Virus record (IMG/VR): IMGVR_UViG_3300027826_000147
Span: 1 to 24,658 of that record
DNA: 24,658 bases
Strand: one strand, 5' to 3'
From: a virus
The notes under the pieces were generated by a model. That model had not been told where the DNA came from and did not search any database. It was given only the letters and a program-made list of their open reading frames with translations. The position numbers and the translations under genes are program-made. The first letter of the stretch is position 1; each line of letters begins with the position of its first letter. This document shows positions 1 through 24,658 of the stretch, piece after piece.

Positions 1-1074
1 ATGGCCACATTCGGAGAGGTCCTGAAAGAGATACAGGACGTCCAATCGCAACGGCAACGCGAAGGCGTTGCTGACCCTATAAGACGAAAATATATCGCTC
101 AGCTACATCAGCTCACGGGCCGCAACGTCGTCGTATATTACTCGGCCTTCCTTCACAGACAAGGCCCGGAGCACTTTCTCACCGTTCAAATCAACGATGA
201 AGACAAGCACGGCTTCATGGCAGCGTTTGCCGGCTTAGATTTCGATCGCGGCCTTGACCTCGTACTTCACTCGCCGGGCGGCGATATTGCTGCGACGGAA
301 AGTATCATCGACTATTTGCGAAGCAAATTTTCAACGAATATCCGAGCGATCGTTCCTCAGATTAGTATGTCGGGTGGAACAATGATCGCTCTTGCGGGAC
401 GCGAGATCGTCATGGGGCGCCATTCCAATCTCGGTCCTATTGATCCCCAGCTCGGGGGCCGACCGGCAATTGCTATTCTTGAAGAATTTGAACGAGCGCG
501 GAACGATATCGCGGCGAACCCGAATAACGCGTTTTTGTGGCAGCCCATACTGCAGCAGTACGTACCCACACTGTTATCTCAGGCTGAACACGCGATTAAG
601 TGGTCCCAAGAAATCGGGCGAAAGACGCTGATTGAAGGCATGTTCAAGGACGATACCCAAGCGGACGACAAGGCGAGCGCGATCGTTGATTTCCTATCGA
701 GCCACAATGTACATCGAGCCCATGGCCGGCACCTCCACCGTAATGAGCTTCGCGCAAAAGGTCTAAATATAGCGGATTTGGAGGCGGATCCTGCATTGCA
801 GGACGCAGTGCTCAGTGTGCATCATGCCTGCATGCTCACCGTTGGAAACTATAACGCCAACAAACTCGTTGAAAACCATAACGGAATTGCACATATGAAG
901 GTGGTAGGCATTGCGGTACAGATGCCGAACATTCCGATTCAGGTTCCCGTGCCCATGCCGGGCGCCCCGGTTCAACCGCCAAGCCCGGTGATGCCCCAAC
1001 CTAAACTGCCGACCAAACCAAGCCTTTGGCAGCGATTACGGATTGCGCTGCGGCTTCTCATCCTTGGAAAGTAA
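1..1074 (+). CDS. SDH-family Clp-fold serine protease (SppA/ClpP-like)
   Basis: The 357-residue product has the motif order of SDH/SppA-type Clp-fold serine proteases: HSPGGD at residues 90-95 (oxyanion and substrate strand), SMSGGTM at 122-128 with Ser124 the expected nucleophile, and SNLGPIDPQ at 142-150. A later HRAHGR motif (238-243) recurs in the protease at the other end of the window. After residue 300 the chain is Pro-rich and ends in a basic, hydrophobic stretch (LWQRLRIALRLLILGK), which may be a membrane or partner contact; no signal peptide is seen. G+C is clearly lower than in the phage genes downstream (about 38% in bases 841-900), which suggests a separate origin. The family is recognised by motif; the substrate is unknown. 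It starts at the first base of the window, so an upstream in-frame start cannot be excluded. A prohead protease role is possible but not favoured, because scaffold and capsid genes are far away. Confidence 0.8.
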   Translation: MATFGEVLKEIQDVQSQRQREGVADPIRRKYIAQLHQLTGRNVVVYYSAFLHRQGPEHFLTVQINDEDKHGFMAAFAGLDFDRGLDLVLHSPGGDIAATESIIDYLRSKFSTNIRAIVPQISMSGGTMIALAGREIVMGRHSNLGPIDPQLGGRPAIAILEEFERARNDIAANPNNAFLWQPILQQYVPTLLSQAEHAIKWSQEIGRKTLIEGMFKDDTQADDKASAIVDFLSSHNVHRAHGRHLHRNELRAKGLNIADLEADPALQDAVLSVHHACMLTVGNYNANKLVENHNGIAHMKVVGIAVQMPNIPIQVPVPMPGAPVQPPSPVMPQPKLPTKPSLWQRLRIALRLLILGK

Positions 1075-1267
1075 TCCAAAACCTGCCCACGCCGAAGCTC
1101 AGGCCTCATCCGCAGTAGCGACTGGGCCATCTGTGGATGCGTGTGCCGCGACCGCGACGCCCGTTCAAATCACAACACCGTTGCGCCGGATTGGAACGGC
1201 GTGAATTTCTAAAGCCTTGTCCGCGGCGAGCCTTGCCAGCTCGCGTGGCCAACATCGCGGGTCCGCC

Positions 1268-1871
1268 ATGCAATACTCCCCCTATGATCCGTGGCGGAAA
1301 TATGCTTCGCCGCCGCGCGATCCCCTCAGCACGACGGCGGCGGCGCTCGCCACCCTCGGCGGCGGCAGCGCGGCGACCGGCGGCGCCATGGGGCTGACCG
1401 GCATCGGCACGGGGATTTCAGCGGCGAACACGATCGCGGGCGGCAGCTACGCTGCGCAGATGGGCCGGGCGAAACAGGCCGAGGCCAATTTCGAGGCCGA
1501 TCAGGATGTCGCGCGAGATCGCGGCTGCCCAGCGCCAGGCGATCGATCTCAATCAGAGGGCCGGCCTCATGCGCTCATCGGCGGTCGCCCAGGCGGCCGC
1601 CAACGGCGTCAACGCAGGCGCGGGCAGCGCGCTGACCAGCCAGGCGCAGATCGCGGCGCGCGGCCGCTACCAGGCCGACATGGACCTCTGGTCTGGCCAG
1701 AACCAGGCCAGCGGCCTGATGAACCGCGCCGCCGGGAAGAGATACAGCGGCGACCTGGACGCGCTGGCCGGCGAGGAGATGCAGCGGGCATCGACGCTCA
1801 ACGCGCTCTCGACGATCGCCGGAGGCGGCGCGTCGTTCATGCGCATGTATGGCGGCCGGGCATCGTTCTAA
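1268..1871 (+). pseudogene. gp14-like internal virion protein, frameshifted
   Basis: Two reading frames together give one Ala/Gly/Gln-rich protein of about 200 residues. The first runs from ATG 1268 (MQYSPYDPWRKYAS) to about base 1510, and the second from about 1512 (REIAAAQRQAIDLNQRAG) to the TAA at 1869-1871. Length, a glycine-rich hydrophobic N-terminal segment and a long helical Ala/Gln-rich remainder resemble T7 gp14-type core proteins, which leave the capsid to help form the DNA channel in the cell envelope; this is an analogy, not a proven homology. The frame changes by +1 in the GC-repeat tract 1509-1516, as from one extra base. Translation straight through the first frame gives an Arg/Pro-rich low-quality sequence, so the shift is real or a sequencing error. 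It lies immediately upstream of two other probable ejection proteins. Confidence 0.6.
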
Positions 1872-3484: not shown

Positions 3485-5161
3485 ATGCCGACCCGGATCG
3501 AGCTGTTGAAACAGGCCGGCTTTTCCGATGGCGAGATCGGCGATTGGGCGACCGCAGAGCGGCAGCGAATGCGGCAGGCGGGATTTACCGACAGCGAGAT
3601 CGACGATGAGTTTGGCGTCACGCGGCCGCCGAAACAGGTTCCAGCGGCGTTCATCCATCGCATCCTCGGCGCCGCCCGCGAATATGCGCAAGGCTATTTC
3701 GGCGATGAGCCGTTGGGATTTTCGCCGGAAACCCAGGAGGCGTTGCGCAAGCTCGGCATTGCCGGCGACATCATTATCCCGGCCGGAAAACCGATAGACG
3801 CAGCATTGAGAACGCTGTCGGCGGGGACGGCAGGCATTGGCGCAGCGGTCGGACAAGCTGTGGAGGAAGGCCAGGAGGCCATCTTTGGGCCCGGGCCGTA
3901 TGGGAGAGGCAAGGCTGCGCGCGATTTCGCGCAATTCGCGCAGATCGCCGCGATGCTCTTGGGCGCAAGCGGGCGGACGCCGGGCGCCGCGCGTGCGCCC
4001 GCGCCAAAGGCCGCCGCCGCGGACGCGCCCGTCAGCGCGCTGCCGCGCGCCGAAGATTTTCGCAATGCCGCCAGCGTCATCTCCGGGACTGCGGCAAGCT
4101 TCCCCACAGAGCAGAAGCTCCTCCGATTATGGAATGATCACGGCATTCCTCCGGCCGAGGTCGCGGAAGACGCGCTGCGCGACCGAACCATCGGGGACGC
4201 CATCAGGTCGGACTCCGACAAACTCCCTGAAGCCTATGTGGGGACCGGCGAGACCACTACGCCAACCGGCGCCGAACCGGGCGCAACGACGCGGCCCGCC
4301 AAGCCTGCCGAGGCCGAGCCCGCAACCGCTCCAATGGGAATCAAGGCTGCCCTCGTGGAAGCGGGCGACGGGTCCGCCGGAAACCTGAATGCTTCTGAGC
4401 GGGCGAATATGATTGCCGAAGCTCGCGTCCGTATGAGACACCCGCCGGCGAGACCGCAGCGCCCATTCAGCGAGGACTATCCCCGCCGCGCTCCAACCGA
4501 TGTGAACAACCAGCTTCTATATGATATTGAAGGGCGTCCCCTGGGAGCCACGTCCGTTGCTGGACGTCGATTTGCCGGGAAGGCTGATGAAGCGCTTTCG
4601 CCGGAAGATATCAGACGCGCACTGGCGGAAACAGGCATCAACCTGACGGATATACCTCGGAAGCAGTGGAATCAGTTTCCGCGAGGACTTCGCGGACTTT
4701 ATTGGGGGCGCGATGAAGCGAACGGGCCGGCTCTCGACATTTATCTAAAAACCGGACCCAAGGCGGCCGACCGCGACAAAGTCATAGCGCATGAATTTGG
4801 TCACGCTATTGACCAGTTGAGCGGGAACATCTCGGAAACGCTCACGCCGGAGGAGATCGCCGAACTCCGCTCGGTCTACGGCAACCTGAGATACCGTCCG
4901 AAAAAAGAAGGGCCTAGCCCGCAGCCTGAGCACTTCGGCTATCCGCCTGAACTTGTAAACTCGGAACTCGTGGCCGAAGGCTTAAGGGCCTATCTGACGA
5001 ATCCAAATTATTTCAAGACAATGGCGCCGAAGGCGGCAGCCAAGATCCGGGCCGCCGTCAATGAAAATCCCTGGCTTCAGCACGCCATTCAGTTCAATTC
5101 GCTCCTCGCTGCGGGTCTGATCGGCGCTGGCGCTCGCGGTCAGGATCGGGACGACCAATAG
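3485..5161 (+). CDS. Internal virion protein with zinc metallopeptidase motif
   Basis: The 558-residue product starts with two copies of a short motif, QAGFSDGEIGD (about 10-20) and QAGFTDSEIDD (about 30-40), a pattern seen at the N-terminus of phage internal virion proteins. A glycine/alanine-rich hydrophobic region follows (about 95-165), then a long Pro/Ala/Thr linker (about 170-300). The C-terminal third carries HEFGH at 436-440, a zincin HExxH site. SELVAEGLRAYL lies about 55 residues later, with Glu494 or Glu498 as possible third ligand. The last 30 residues are hydrophobic near the end (FNSLLAAGLIGAGARG). GAGGT at 3472-3476 serves ATG 3485, six bases after the previous stop. It is probably injected with the DNA, the metallopeptidase perhaps opening peptidoglycan crosslinks or processing a host protein; target unknown. 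Confidence 0.65.
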   Translation: MPTRIELLKQAGFSDGEIGDWATAERQRMRQAGFTDSEIDDEFGVTRPPKQVPAAFIHRILGAAREYAQGYFGDEPLGFSPETQEALRKLGIAGDIIIPAGKPIDAALRTLSAGTAGIGAAVGQAVEEGQEAIFGPGPYGRGKAARDFAQFAQIAAMLLGASGRTPGAARAPAPKAAAADAPVSALPRAEDFRNAASVISGTAASFPTEQKLLRLWNDHGIPPAEVAEDALRDRTIGDAIRSDSDKLPEAYVGTGETTTPTGAEPGATTRPAKPAEAEPATAPMGIKAALVEAGDGSAGNLNASERANMIAEARVRMRHPPARPQRPFSEDYPRRAPTDVNNQLLYDIEGRPLGATSVAGRRFAGKADEALSPEDIRRALAETGINLTDIPRKQWNQFPRGLRGLYWGRDEANGPALDIYLKTGPKAADRDKVIAHEFGHAIDQLSGNISETLTPEEIAELRSVYGNLRYRPKKEGPSPQPEHFGYPPELVNSELVAEGLRAYLTNPNYFKTMAPKAAAKIRAAVNENPWLQHAIQFNSLLAAGLIGAGARGQDRDDQ

Positions 5162-5302
5162 CCACGCGCCGCGCCCGGGCGCGGCTGTTCCCGCCGAGCC
5201 CGGCGATAATCGCTCTGCCATGCAGCGGCATCGCATCTGTGCGCCGCCCTGCGGCGAGCATTCCGACACGAATTCTTCTCGCGAACCTGACGGAGTTTCA
5301 CC

Positions 5303-5659
5303 ATGCCTGCTGTTACCCCGGATAACGTGCTCGTCTGGCTGCACGGCCGCCGCCTTGGGCTTGTTGGCGACGGCAGCTTCAGCGCTTCCTCGGGGCTCAT
5401 GGTCGACAACCAGCTCGTCGGCTCCAGGCGCGGGCCCGTCATCTCCCAATTTGCGCCCGGCAACAACGGAGCCGGCGGCGTCGCATTTCCGGCCGCGGTC
5501 GATGGCGATGTCGTGCTGTTTGCGCTCGATCTCACGACGCCGGCCAACGTGACGTCAAGTTTCGAGGCCGTGATTTCCGCCGCCGGGCAGATCAGGCAGA
5601 TCTCCGCCGCAAACCTCAGCACCAAGAACATCTTCTTTCAAATCGCACCGGCCTCATAA
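5303..5659 (+). CDS. Small beta-rich phage structural protein, function unknown
   Basis: A 118-residue protein with alternating hydrophobic residues and many Gly, Val and Ser suggests a beta-sandwich. No signal peptide, membrane segment or known motif was recognised. ATG 5303 follows GGAG (5292-5295) at a normal spacing, which supports this start over upstream possibilities. It lies between the zincin ejection gene and a scaffold-related gene, so a minor head, decoration or connector protein is plausible, but that rests on position alone. The 141-base gap before it contains no convincing gene. Confidence 0.55.
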   Translation: MPAVTPDNVLVWLHGRRLGLVGDGSFSASSGLMVDNQLVGSRRGPVISQFAPGNNGAGGVAFPAAVDGDVVLFALDLTTPANVTSSFEAVISAAGQIRQISAANLSTKNIFFQIAPAS

Positions 5660-5677
5660 AGCTCAGGGAAAACGACC

Positions 5678-6358
5678 ATGCACCGCTATCGCGAATTCGG
5701 ATTGTTCAGCGAACAGGACGAAGTCTTGCGGCGCGCCTTTCGCGACGGCTTCAAGCGGGCGGGCTTGTCATTTGCGCAGTTTCTGGACGCGCTTTCCTGG
5801 TATCGCGACCATGCGCGGCCGGCGGCCGATGAAGCGCAACTTGCCGACGCGTTTGCGCAGTTCGCAGCCGACAGCGGCTGGCCCGCGCACCAGCGCGACG
5901 GCATCCTCGATCTCTACCGAACGATCCGCGACGACGGGCCTGCGGCGGTGATGCAGCCGCCGGCCCCGGACGAGGACCGCGCGACCCTCGCGCGGGCCGA
6001 TGATCTCCTGCGCCGCGATCCGGCGCGCTATTGGGGCGATATGGAGCTGCAAGACGCGGCATTCGAGGCGCGCGAACGGCTTGACGCTGCGCAGGCGGAC
6101 GGCGCTGCGCAGGCGGACGGCGCTGCGCGGGCGTCGCCAGCGAAAGCGAGCCCCGATCAGCAGCGGATCCAGGAGATTGAGGCGATGCTTCATCACCCGA
6201 GCGGCGACGGACAGCGCCGGTACTGGACCGACGCCGCACTGCGCGCCGACTATGCTCAGGCGCTGGGCCGGCTCTACGGCAGCCCCGGCAGCGGGGTTGC
6301 CGAAACGACGGCGTCTTCGCCGGCGGCGCCGGAGAATGTCGGGGCGGCGCGCTCCTGA
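5678..6358 (+). CDS. Scaffold-related phage protein with repeated YW motif
   Basis: This 226-residue acidic, helical protein has an N-terminal part of about 85 residues (FGLFSEQDEVLRRAFRDGF) that I do not recognise. Two copies of a motif follow. The first is around ARYWGDMELQDAAFEAR with Tyr118-Trp119. The second is RIQEIEA at 163-169 followed by RRYWTDAALRADY with Tyr182-Trp183. The second closely parallels the C-terminus of the scaffold gene at 7246-8328 (RIAEIEG, then YWTGDAGARMQQEY), so the two proteins share a module. An 18-bp tandem repeat gives AAQADGAAQADGAA between the copies. AGGG about 10 bases upstream supports ATG 5678. A head-assembly role is inferred from the shared module and position. 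Confidence 0.55.
   Translation: MHRYREFGLFSEQDEVLRRAFRDGFKRAGLSFAQFLDALSWYRDHARPAADEAQLADAFAQFAADSGWPAHQRDGILDLYRTIRDDGPAAVMQPPAPDEDRATLARADDLLRRDPARYWGDMELQDAAFEARERLDAAQADGAAQADGAARASPAKASPDQQRIQEIEAMLHHPSGDGQRRYWTDAALRADYAQALGRLYGSPGSGVAETTASSPAAPENVGAARS
6086..6121 (+). repeat. 18-bp tandem repeat inside the scaffold-related gene
   Basis: Two perfect 18-bp copies (6086-6103 and 6104-6121) with a decayed third after them. They keep the frame and encode AAQADG twice, forming an Ala-rich linker between the two YW motifs. Confidence 0.85.
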
Positions 6359-7245: not shown

Positions 7246-8328
7246 ATGCAGGACAGTCATATCGCGCCCGCACCGCGCGCCGCCACGCCTGAGGGCGAAG
7301 CGGCGGCCGGCAGCGGCGTTGCCTGGCCATCCTCGAAGCCTGCGGGCGGCGCCCCGAATACCGCCGCTGCGGCGGGCCGCGGCGGCGCTCCGCTCGGAGC
7401 GCGAATCGATGCGGCGATGGCGGCGAGCGCGCAAACAAAGGATGCTGCGCCGACGTCAAGAAACGCGGCGTCGATCGCGGAGCCCGCGGCCAGAACCTTT
7501 CCGGAATCCTGGCGTGAGGACCTCTCCGGCGGCGACAGGGCATTCCGCAAAACGCTCGATCGATTCGAAAGCCCGGCGGCTCTTGCAAAGGCTTACAAGG
7601 AGCTCACGGCGAGGCTGTCCTCCGGCGACCTCAAAGCCACAAAGCCGCCTCCCGCCAACGCGACGCCGGAGCAGATTGCGGCCTGGCGCGCCGAACAAGG
7701 CTTGCCGCAGAACGCTGCCGCCTATGTGGACGGATTGCAGCTTGGCGACGGCACAGTAACCGGCGAAGCCGAGAAGGCGTTGCTCGCGTCCTTTGCGGAA
7801 GAGGCGATGAAAGGCCGGTGGACGGCGGACCAATACAACCAGGCCGTCCGCTGGTATTTCGACACGCAGGACAGGCTGGCTGCAAAGCGCGGCGAGGCCG
7901 ATGCGGCGTTCAAGCACGAAGCCTTGGCGGACCTCACCCGCGAATGGGGGCATGATTACGCGACCAACCGCAATGCGGTTGCACAGTTTTTCGATCGAAG
8001 CTTTCCGGCAGACTTCAAGGAAGCATTGCTGACCGCCCGCTTGCCCGACGGCAAGCTCCTTGCCAATCATCCGACTTTCAACAAGGCGATCCTGGAGGTG
8101 GCAAAGGCCATCAATCCGGGCGGCGCGATGCTGCCGAACGCCTCCGGCGGCGGCCTGTCCAACGTGGAAAGCCGGATTGCCGAGATCGAAGGGAAATACA
8201 TGCGCGCGCCCCACGGCTCGGACCTCTGGAAGAGCTACTGGACCGGCGATGCCGGCGCCCGCATGCAACAGGAATATCGCGGCTTGCTCGCCGCCCGCGA
8301 GCACGCCCGTCGCGGCCACGCGGGGTGA
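7246..8328 (+). CDS. Capsid assembly scaffolding protein
   Basis: This 360-residue protein is placed upstream of the capsid gene and has the composition of a scaffold. An Ala/Pro/Gly-rich disordered N-terminus (about 1-80) is followed by FPESWREDLSGGDRAFRK (from about 85), LARF-like and SSGDLKA segments that I recognise from podoviral scaffold-type proteins, and then charged helices. The C-terminus has RIAEIEG (310-316) and YWTGD (331-335) and ends in the basic EHARRGHAG, fitting a capsid-binding tail. It would organise capsid subunits inside the procapsid and leave before maturation. A strong GAGGTGA lies just before ATG 7246. Its stop is only three bases from the end of the convergent ModE-like gene, which now separates it from the capsid gene by about 780 bases. 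Confidence 0.75.
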   Translation: MQDSHIAPAPRAATPEGEAAAGSGVAWPSSKPAGGAPNTAAAAGRGGAPLGARIDAAMAASAQTKDAAPTSRNAASIAEPAARTFPESWREDLSGGDRAFRKTLDRFESPAALAKAYKELTARLSSGDLKATKPPPANATPEQIAAWRAEQGLPQNAAAYVDGLQLGDGTVTGEAEKALLASFAEEAMKGRWTADQYNQAVRWYFDTQDRLAAKRGEADAAFKHEALADLTREWGHDYATNRNAVAQFFDRSFPADFKEALLTARLPDGKLLANHPTFNKAILEVAKAINPGGAMLPNASGGGLSNVESRIAEIEGKYMRAPHGSDLWKSYWTGDAGARMQQEYRGLLAAREHARRGHAG

Positions 8329-8331
8329 CCC

Positions 8332-8739
8332 TCATCGCCGCGGCGACGACGCGCGCACCGAGCGTTTGAGCGAGGGGCCGGCGCGCTGCGGCTTCGGCGT
8401 CTTCAATGCAGCTTCGAGATCGTGAAGATGCTTGCGGGTCGCGACCAGCGCCTCGGCCTCGATCGCGCGATAGCGTTCGACAAGCCGCTGCCCGAACGGC
8501 GTCAGCGTCGCGCCGCCGCCATGGAGGCCGCCCGGCTGTGCGGCGATCACCGCATCGCGAAAGCAATTGTTCATGTCATCGACCAGAAGCCAGGCGCGGC
8601 GATAAGACATGCCCAGCATACGGCCTGCCTGTGAAATCGACCCGGTCTGGTCGATGGCTTCGAGCAGGCGAACCTTGCCCGGCCCCAAGGCGCGGCCGCT
8701 GCCCAAATCCACTCTCAGCGTCAGTCTTGGCGTATCCAT
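8332..8739 (-). CDS. ModE-type winged helix-turn-helix regulator (DNA-binding domain only)
   Basis: On the minus strand a 135-residue protein begins MDTPRLTLRVDLGSGRALG and contains VRLLEAIDQTGSISQAGR and MLGMSYRRAWLLVDDMN, the characteristic winged helix-turn-helix of the ModE N-terminal domain. It then has a wing region (GGGATLTPFGQRLVERYRA) and a short basic tail. The molybdate-binding TOBE domains of full ModE are absent. The single-domain form is known in bacteria, where it usually lies near molybdate transport genes; none is seen here. I chose the start at 8739 because the family fit begins there; a longer frame from 8796 exists. It is the only confident minus-strand gene, convergent with the scaffold gene and divergent from the capsid gene. 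It may be a moron or a host gene caught in the prophage. Confidence 0.8.
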   Translation of the reverse strand: MDTPRLTLRVDLGSGRALGPGKVRLLEAIDQTGSISQAGRMLGMSYRRAWLLVDDMNNCFRDAVIAAQPGGLHGGGATLTPFGQRLVERYRAIEAEALVATRKHLHDLEAALKTPKPQRAGPSLKRSVRASSPRR

Positions 8740-9108
8740 GATCGCGACGGCCCGAACTCGAACTGGGTCACCATAGCATTTCCGCTGATTTGCCACCCGA
8801 ACGTTTTCCGCAAGACGATCGGATATCCCGTCAGCACCCGTGAGGGCAAGGTTCTCTCGGAACCTTACCCGACCCGGCCGCTACGGCCCCGAACGGCTTG
8901 CATTTCACCCGCCGATGGAAAGCCCTGCGGGGCATGTGCCGGCGCCGGCTTCAGGGAAGCAGGAATTCAGACGTCAGGCGGTCGAACGCATCTCACGCCA
9001 AGACCGCCAACGATTGATTTCGGTCCCCGAAGCCGGCTAACCCCAATCATGCGCCCGCAGACAACCGGAACGGAGGCATCGAAACGATGACCACGAAGGA
9101 CTGGATCA
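8740..9108. promoter_or_regulatory. Divergent intergenic region with a hairpin, no convincing gene
   Basis: This 369-base stretch lies between the start of the ModE-like gene and the capsid gene, so it should hold promoters or leader sequence for one or both. A perfect 7-bp hairpin, AAGGTTC (8848-8854) with GAACCTT (8860-8866), is the clearest structure. GCCGGCGCCGGC near 8940 is palindromic. GGAGG at 9072-9076 lies before an ATG at 9087 that opens only a short overlapping frame. I could not identify definite -35 and -10 boxes. Confidence 0.4.
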
Positions 9109-9942
9109 ATGGCCGATTCGGCGTTCCAGATTCAATTCCGTCAGGAGTTCATCGCCCAGTTCGAGCAGGGCCAGTCATGGCTGCGCAACGTCTGCACGAC
9201 AGAGGCGGTGATCAAGGGCAACCAGGCGATGTTCCTGGTGGCCGGCTCAGGCGGCGCTACCGCCGTGACGCGCGGGCTTAACGGCAACATTCCGCCGCGC
9301 GTCGACAGCCTCACCCAGGTGCCTGCGACTCTCGTGGAATGGCACGACAAGCCGCAGCGCACCGAGTTCAACATCTTCGCGAGTCAGGGCGACGGCCGCC
9401 GCATCATGCAGATGTCGACGGTGAAGGTGATGAACCGCAAGATCGACCAGGACATCCTGGGCGCGCTTTCCGGCGCGTCGAGCAGCCTCGGCCCGGCTCA
9501 GGCAATGACTCTCGCGCTCGCAACGCGGGCGCTGGCGCACCTCGATCTGCAGGACGTCGACACCACCGAGGAAGACAACATGTTCTTCGTCGGTTCGCCC
9601 GCCATGCGGGCCTATCTCATGCAGATCCCGGAATTCCAGAAGGCTGAATATGTCGAGATCAAGCCCCTGGCCGGGCCGGCTCGGCGCTTCCGCCGCTGGG
9701 CCGGCTTCAACTGGATCTTCCATCCGCATGTTCCGAACGTGGGCACCGCCAACGAGCAGTGTTTCGCATTCCATCGCTCGGCTGTCGGTCACGCGGTGAA
9801 CACGGGCGAGATGGATGTCCGCGCCGGCTACAACGAGGAGAACGCCTACTACTGGGCGCGCTCCTCGATCTTCATGGGCTCGGCGCTGCTGCAGAACGCG
9901 GGCGTGGTCGTGGTCAGCCACGACGGCTCGAAATACACCTAA
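9109..9942 (+). CDS. Major capsid protein (podovirus-like)
   Basis: The 277-residue product begins MADSAFQIQFRQEFIAQFEQ and continues with TTEAVIKGNQAMFLVAGSGG, FNIFASQGDGRR and KIDQDILGAL. I recognise these segments from the major capsid protein family of Bcep22-like podoviruses and many alphaproteobacterial prophages. It would form the icosahedral shell. ATG 9109 is preferred because the conserved N-terminus begins exactly there and AAGGA lies at 9093-9097. A better Shine-Dalgarno sequence precedes ATG 9087, but that frame is different and ends at 9281. The gene follows a scaffold gene (interrupted by the ModE-like gene) and precedes a fibre gene. It appears intact. Confidence 0.8.
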   Translation: MADSAFQIQFRQEFIAQFEQGQSWLRNVCTTEAVIKGNQAMFLVAGSGGATAVTRGLNGNIPPRVDSLTQVPATLVEWHDKPQRTEFNIFASQGDGRRIMQMSTVKVMNRKIDQDILGALSGASSSLGPAQAMTLALATRALAHLDLQDVDTTEEDNMFFVGSPAMRAYLMQIPEFQKAEYVEIKPLAGPARRFRRWAGFNWIFHPHVPNVGTANEQCFAFHRSAVGHAVNTGEMDVRAGYNEENAYYWARSSIFMGSALLQNAGVVVVSHDGSKYT

Positions 9943-10121
9943 CGGGAATCAGTAATCGGGAATCAGGGGTCAGGAAGCAGGGTTGGGAAGCGCAGTCCTG
10001 ACTCCTGGCGCCTGACTCCTGACGCCTGAATAACGGGAATCAGTAATCGGGAATCAGGGGTCAGGAAGCGGGGTTGGGAAGCGCAGTCCTGACTCCTGGC
10101 GCCTGATTCCTGACGCCTGAA
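9940..10121. repeat. 91-bp tandem duplication after the capsid gene
   Basis: Two 91-bp units, 9940-10030 and 10031-10121, differ at two positions only (A/G at 9978 or 10069 and C/T at 10016 or 10107, approximately). Each unit is built of imperfect GGGAATCAG, GGGGTCAGGA and CTGACTCCTGGCGCCTGA blocks. The left half (GGTCAGGA) can therefore pair with the right half (TCCTGACTCC) in a long imperfect stem. The first unit includes the capsid gene stop codon TAA. A shorter related block is at 15794-15822. Confidence 0.9.
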
Positions 10122-23788: not shown

Positions 23789-24658
23789 ATGGCCGTTTAC
23801 GACGATATCATTTTCAAAGTAGTGCGCGATGCCGAAGCTGACCTTGAACAGCGGCTCGACGCGGACATCATGTATTTCAACAGCGAAATTCGCATGAACA
23901 TATTCCCATGGTTTCGGGAGGTGATCGAAAAGCTCGCCAGGCGGCCGGAGAAGAAGTCCGCGATCGCGATCTTCCTTACCACCCCAGGTGGTCAAGCCGA
24001 AGTTGTGGAAAAACTGGTCGAAGTTGTGCGGGCTCATTTCGACCTGGTTAATTTCGTCGTGCCTGTCGCCGCAATGTCCGCGGGCACCATTTTTTGCATG
24101 TCGGGCGATAAGATTTTCATGGACTACTCGTCCTCGCTCGGACCGATCGATCCGCAGGTGCCAGACCGTGAAGGCAAGTATCTCATCCCAGCACTTGGTC
24201 ATCTCGACAAGGTCAAGGAGATCATCGAGAAGTCGCGCAACAACACCATTACCCCGGTCGAGTTTCAATGGCTTCTGAACCAGGACCTCGCAATGCTGCG
24301 CTTCTACGAACAGGCGCGCGATTTGTCGATCGCGTTGCTGGAAAAATGGCTTGTTCAGTACAAGTTCAAGGATTGGCTAACTCACAGGACAAGCAGTCCA
24401 GGGACAGCCGTTACGCTAGAAGAGAAGCGGACGCGGGCAAACGAAATTGCCAAGCTCCTCTCAAACAACGCCCACCGGCACTCGCACGGCCGAATGATCG
24501 GGATGAACACGCTCAGGAAGACATGTAAGCTCGAGATAGATGATTTCGGTGGAGACCCGGATCTCCAGAAGGCTGTTCGGACTTATAACGATGCGCTATC
24601 GGAATACTTGGCACGTGCGCAGATCCGGAACTTTTTGTACAATCGACACCTGAACTGA
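23789..24658 (+). CDS. SDH-family Clp-fold serine protease (second copy type)
   Basis: The 289-residue protein has LTTPGGQ (63-69), AMSAGTI (95-101, with Ser97 the expected nucleophile), SLGPIDPQ (116-123) and HRHSHGR (229-235), in the same order and spacing type as the protein at 1-1074. It lacks that protein's Pro-rich C-terminal tail. No signal peptide is visible, and a soluble cytoplasmic protease is expected. Its G+C is lower than in the lysis genes before it (about 47% in bases 24001-24060), suggesting a cargo gene or host chromosome at the prophage edge. The start at 23789 has only a weak AGG upstream. Substrate and role are unknown. Confidence 0.8.
   Translation: MAVYDDIIFKVVRDAEADLEQRLDADIMYFNSEIRMNIFPWFREVIEKLARRPEKKSAIAIFLTTPGGQAEVVEKLVEVVRAHFDLVNFVVPVAAMSAGTIFCMSGDKIFMDYSSSLGPIDPQVPDREGKYLIPALGHLDKVKEIIEKSRNNTITPVEFQWLLNQDLAMLRFYEQARDLSIALLEKWLVQYKFKDWLTHRTSSPGTAVTLEEKRTRANEIAKLLSNNAHRHSHGRMIGMNTLRKTCKLEIDDFGGDPDLQKAVRTYNDALSEYLARAQIRNFLYNRHLN

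Follow-up and report, generated by a model that had tools for sequence, protein, structure and literature searches.

The ModE-type gene lies between scaffold-like and capsid genes

The window, that is, the whole stretch of 24,658 nucleotides analyzed here, corresponds to bases 149-24806 of contig C239 (54,616 bases) of draft genome G000 (6.07 Mb, 353 contigs). A minus-strand ORF of the ModE type sits between a scaffold-like gene and the capsid gene. The TGA of the scaffold gene is followed by CCC at 8329-8331 and then by the stop codon of the ModE gene. The order given in the original prediction (scaffold, three bases, minus-strand single-domain ModE-type gene, 369 bases, capsid) matches the ORF coordinates exactly. 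The features of the locus are the following:

7246-8328, plus strand: scaffold-like gene, phrog_3742; role inferred from its place before the capsid gene
8332-8739, minus strand: single-domain ModE-type winged-helix regulator, 135 aa, start ATG at 8739 (TIGR00637, PDB 2ijl, AlphaFold2/Foldseek)
8740-9108, no strand: divergent intergenic region from the ModE start to the capsid start, 369 bp, without a ModE box
8770-8778, minus strand: TGCTATGGT, extended -10-like motif, ~31-39 nt before the ModE start codon, mostly kept across phage contigs
8885-8950, plus strand: conserved capsid-upstream element, present also in ModE-less contigs
9109-9942, plus strand: major capsid protein (PF19821 / phrog_3437)

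Since phrog_3742 is unannotated, the name "scaffold" follows from position. GC content by codon position in the minus-strand ModE frame was 0.69/0.54/0.76, which is of the coding type and resembles the scaffold gene, whereas the plus-strand ORF opposing it was not of the coding type. The TGCTATGGT motif is a candidate promoter for the ModE gene. A scan of the ModE locus for a sigma-70 consensus promoter and a terminator found neither, and Rfam searches of the window and of 8300-9200 returned no family. When late-promoter repeats were sought, the capsid-upstream element was found to occur a single time in the window. Two further observations were made around the capsid gene. A possible leader peptide, starting at an out-of-frame ATG (9087) that is preceded by GGAGG (9072-9076), overlaps the capsid start (window 9087-9108), and the stretch between capsid and next gene (window 9943-10120) holds two copies of a ~90-base unit rich in GGGAATCAGTAATC/TGACTCCTG motifs.

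The protein is a single-domain ModE-like regulator

The protein matched the NCBIfam profile TIGR00637 (ModE_repress) with E=2e-24 and 85.4 bits, which is under the curated cut-off of 98.5, so that the profile does not formally assign it to the ModE family. The match to PF00126 (25.7 bits) was likewise under its cut-off of 26.6. Among PDB sequences, only 2ijl (E=6e-30) and E. coli ModE (1o7l/1b9m, E=1.5e-12) were matched, and the same entries were the top Foldseek matches of an AlphaFold2 model (pLDDT 84), whose C-terminal part consists of a helix and a disordered tail. Judged by its nearest solved structures, the protein is ModE-like, and the closest of these is the single-domain Agrobacterium protein 2ijl. 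Domain profiles detected no Mop/TOBE domain in the 135 aa, so the protein is not a full-length, molybdate-sensing ModE, and a PHROGs search gave no family for it. As it is a single domain without a known molybdate pocket, it is doubtful that it senses molybdate directly.

The gene is conserved at one site in a single phage clade

Relatives were searched for the regulator at the same site, as the original prediction had proposed, and 12 metagenome phage contigs carry it there. In each of them ModE keeps both its scaffold-gene neighbour and its orientation, and its placement is therefore not due to chance. Eleven of the 12 contigs extend to the capsid gene, with ModE at the identical site and orientation; the remaining one (L129) ends before it. 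The capsids of the carriers are 94-97% identical to that of the window, except for L038, which is a 100% match. Some contigs show local peculiarities. In L048, a gene that by eye resembles an SDH-type Clp-fold serine proteinase (4519-5415) lies between ModE and capsid. The capsid match starts at residue 11 in L056, L057, L058 and L064, and the L064 capsid gene has its 5' end replaced by foreign DNA (5671-6030) that may be an insertion sequence.

The ModE gene is missing from L050 and L051, two members of the carriers' clade. They nest among the carriers in a weakly resolved part of the capsid tree, which suggests that ModE was lost in them. Sister-clade phages, with capsids 79-82% identical, are also without ModE. 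The gene thus has the distribution of a phage moron, an extra gene between phage genes that is absent from relatives: it occurs in one clade, and neither in the sister clades nor in L050/L051. Among the phage copies, dN/dS was 0.12 for ModE and 0.08 for its HTH part, compared to 0.05 for the capsid, indicating that phage ModE is under purifying selection. The reading frame is intact in every phage copy read.

A thirteenth copy (73% identical) was found in a different gene cluster, which is siphophage/GTA-like with an rcGTA-like tail (L128:4090-6408); its neighbours there are a serine recombinase and an IS630-like transposase, these names being partly assigned by eye. Annotated phages gave only weak ModE matches (28-49% identity), the best two being records of Acinetobacter phage MD-2021a. 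A 48% match in L200 was rejected as a phage gene, as by eye it resembles a modABC region of a bacterium where it borders a prophage.

Phage ModE is related to genes of cellular molybdenum/tungsten islands

The phage copies group as a single clade in the ModE tree (support 89/81), nested in a supported group (99/97) that includes cellular genes of genera g12 and g3 as well as L146. These cellular relatives are located in molybdenum/tungsten gene islands with tupA-, modA-, fdhD-, mobA- and moeA-type neighbours, of which tupA-like, fdhD and modA were confirmed by HMM and the remaining ones were named by eye. A scan of genome contigs yielded a single relative, L146, beside modA and a modB-like gene. 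The HTH stretch is near-identical in phage and cellular copies. The palindrome CGCTATAT-N8-ATATAGCG is present in the cellular islands, and these boxes fit the E. coli ModE consensus ATCGNTATATA-N6-TATATANCGAT (PMC545781).

The original prediction had named, as part of a result that would speak against it, a location beside molybdate transport genes in close relatives with the prophage lacking the gene. The first half applies, as ModE relatives in bacteria do adjoin molybdate/tungstate genes, but the phage lineage holds its own conserved copy. We propose that a temperate podovirus lineage acquired single-domain ModE once, probably from an alphaproteobacterial molybdenum/tungsten island, and has since retained it in working form, always at the one site that separates scaffold from capsid.

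The phage is most likely a prophage of a soil bacterium

The phage is in all likelihood a prophage, and its host a soil bacterium that, from its relatives, we would place among the Alphaproteobacteria. To the right of ~24.9 kb, contig C239 reads by eye as bacterial chromosome (TctC-like receptor, M24 peptidase, cysteine synthase, ABC transporters), and contig C195 carries bacterial-looking genes together with terminase, a CI-like S24/XRE protein taken by eye as a repressor candidate, and a portal gene cut at the contig end. For these reasons, the phage is most likely integrated and assembled in two pieces (C239 and C195). At window 1264-1859, the counterpart of a 188-aa protein of related phages is interrupted by a frameshift or an assembly error, so that its ORF occupies two frames; because of this and the cut portal gene, the prophage may be decaying. 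Genes for SDH-type Clp-fold serine proteinases were noted on both sides of the phage cluster (window 1-1074 and 23789-24658).

A tyrosine integrase is present in 7 of 13 records of more distant relatives of 45-58 kb. Any capsid match was found in 9 of 391 family genomes, and the ModE clade in this host alone, which makes it the only known lysogen genome. A single inherited domesticated prophage is not favoured, as the right flank of the relative L151 has genes other than those of the host chromosome here.

The host genome contains ModE boxes and no other detectable modE

Seven host sites have at most one mismatch to CGYTATAT-N8-ATATARCG, compared to 0 in the reversed control; this is the maximum among 198 family genomes. 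An eighth box (C288:6224) has two mismatches, and a weaker 13/16 box lies ~21 bp before modA of the host modABC. The box contigs are C36, on which five sites cluster, C100 and C288 (L177, L179 and L180, respectively). The boxes are located near or ahead of genes for an NAD-dependent formate dehydrogenase, a cupin protein, aldehyde dehydrogenases, a DUF2325 protein, DUF2478 and a molybdopterin-domain protein. The NAD-dependent formate dehydrogenase is a molybdenum-free enzyme. On the basis of these sites, we predict a host ModE regulon that includes molybdenum-free isoenzymes. A gene for a stand-alone Mop protein (L180:3523-3786) adjoins the host DUF2325 gene, and this separate protein could be the molybdate sensor.

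Across the family, boxes track single-domain ModE strongly: they were found in 70 of 101 genomes with it and in 3 of 80 without it (p=1.6e-21, a Fisher test that overstates independence because family genomes are related). Two or more boxes occur in 27 of 101 and 0 of 80 genomes, respectively. In the host assembly, a TIGR00637 search found no ModE beyond the prophage gene (next match 20.8 bits), and neither modE nor a recognisable remnant was found beside the host modABC (C270) or DUF2325 (C288) loci. These searches cover the 353-contig draft, and a chromosomal modE could lie in an assembly gap. Since the host assembly has many ModE sites and no other ModE gene, the virus seems to supply the molybdenum switch.

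With reasonable, though far from full, confidence we propose that the molybdenum regulon of the host is the target of a phage-acquired, host-type ModE, probably the sole ModE in the cell. The idea of the original prediction that a moron links molybdenum metabolism to the prophage is hence retained as the best model, by way of the host boxes and the lack of another ModE in the assembly. The more far-reaching version, in which the prophage gene is the sole ModE, controls a regulon with eight or more operator sites on the chromosome and makes the host dependent on a virus for molybdenum homeostasis, is put forward tentatively.

Alternative explanations

The alternative that survives best, albeit as an unlikely one, is that phage ModE is a redundant lysogenic-conversion gene, which acts on the host regulon while a chromosomal modE also exists in an assembly gap. 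Cellular relatives usually have their own modE and the host assembly is a draft of 353 contigs, but its completeness estimate is 100% and the modABC and DUF2325 loci bear no trace of the gene.

Somewhat less probable still is a phage-internal role, in which ModE would bind 8740-9108 to repress its own gene or the capsid promoter. The gene is divergent and adjoins the capsid promoter region, and a conserved noncoding element lies upstream of the capsid. However, this element persists in ModE-less L050 and L051, and the sister phages also do without ModE. The best match to the known ModE box, which is the only operator type covered, in 8740-9108 was 8/16, and all 300 shuffles scored equal or higher; nor did the phage contigs contain boxes above chance. 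Moreover, the CI-like S24/XRE protein (by eye) near the terminase genes could maintain lysogeny. These results argue against the repressor of the capsid promoter that the original prediction had offered as its second option.

We consider it very improbable that ModE is a host-takeover factor, produced during the lytic cycle so that molybdenum uptake is blocked or opened to the advantage of the phage: its position among late genes and its strong conservation would fit, but the gene opposes the late genes, and because it faces against them late transcription would be antisense to it. That ModE is passenger DNA, without function in the phage and on its way out, is the least credible explanation, given a dN/dS of 0.12 and intact frames in all copies read, even though L050 and L051 are without the gene and a frameshift is present elsewhere in the prophage.

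Discussion

In the favoured model, in which phage ModE acts on the host regulon, the gene faces against late transcription, so its own promoter could express it in the lysogen. There, ModE would most likely bind the host boxes CGYTATAT-N8-ATATARCG and control, presumably by repression, the host modABC, the DUF2325 gene, DUF2478 and molybdenum-free isoenzymes (such as NAD-dependent formate dehydrogenase and aldehyde dehydrogenases). Molybdate might be sensed via the separate Mop protein.

Several known systems share parts of this arrangement. The single-domain ModE of Agrobacterium tumefaciens (PDB 2ijl), the best structural match, has the same architecture and length (135 aa), but it is a bacterial protein with a solved structure, whereas the gene described here lies within a phage structural cluster. 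E. coli ModE (PDB 1b9m, 1o7l) shares the winged-helix DNA-binding domain, and the host boxes fit its consensus; unlike the phage protein, it is chromosomal and has C-terminal molybdate-binding domains. In Rhodobacter capsulatus, the ModE-like repressors MopA and MopB target mopA-modABC as well as anfA, whose product regulates a molybdenum-free system (PMC6925177). This set of targets parallels the boxes found here ahead of modA and of molybdenum-free enzymes, but MopA and MopB are chromosomal and molybdate-responsive rather than phage-borne. Delta-proteobacterial single-domain ModE is also a stand-alone DNA-binding domain, for which the mechanism of Mo sensing was called unclear (PMC545781). 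It is chromosomal, however, and the operator predicted for Desulfovibrio, CGGTCACG-N14-CGTGACCG (PMC545781), is unlike the host boxes. Finally, prophage HK022 alters torS expression in E. coli by a phage promoter that reads into the host gene (PMC6814406). In that case, too, a prophage resets host respiratory regulation, but by a promoter and not by a phage-encoded transcription factor. We found no paper on ModE in a phage, in a literature search weakened by "mode" as a search word.

Phage genes that alter host metabolism are already known. A conserved, phage-borne ModE-type factor with chromosomal targets, and with no other copy found in the host, would clearly exemplify how a cell can come to rely on a prophage for one of its core regulatory circuits. 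If this is true, molybdate uptake and the shift to molybdenum-free isoenzymes would escape control once the prophage is lost or induced. The ModE gene thereby connects soil phages with the use of molybdenum in a way that can be tested directly.
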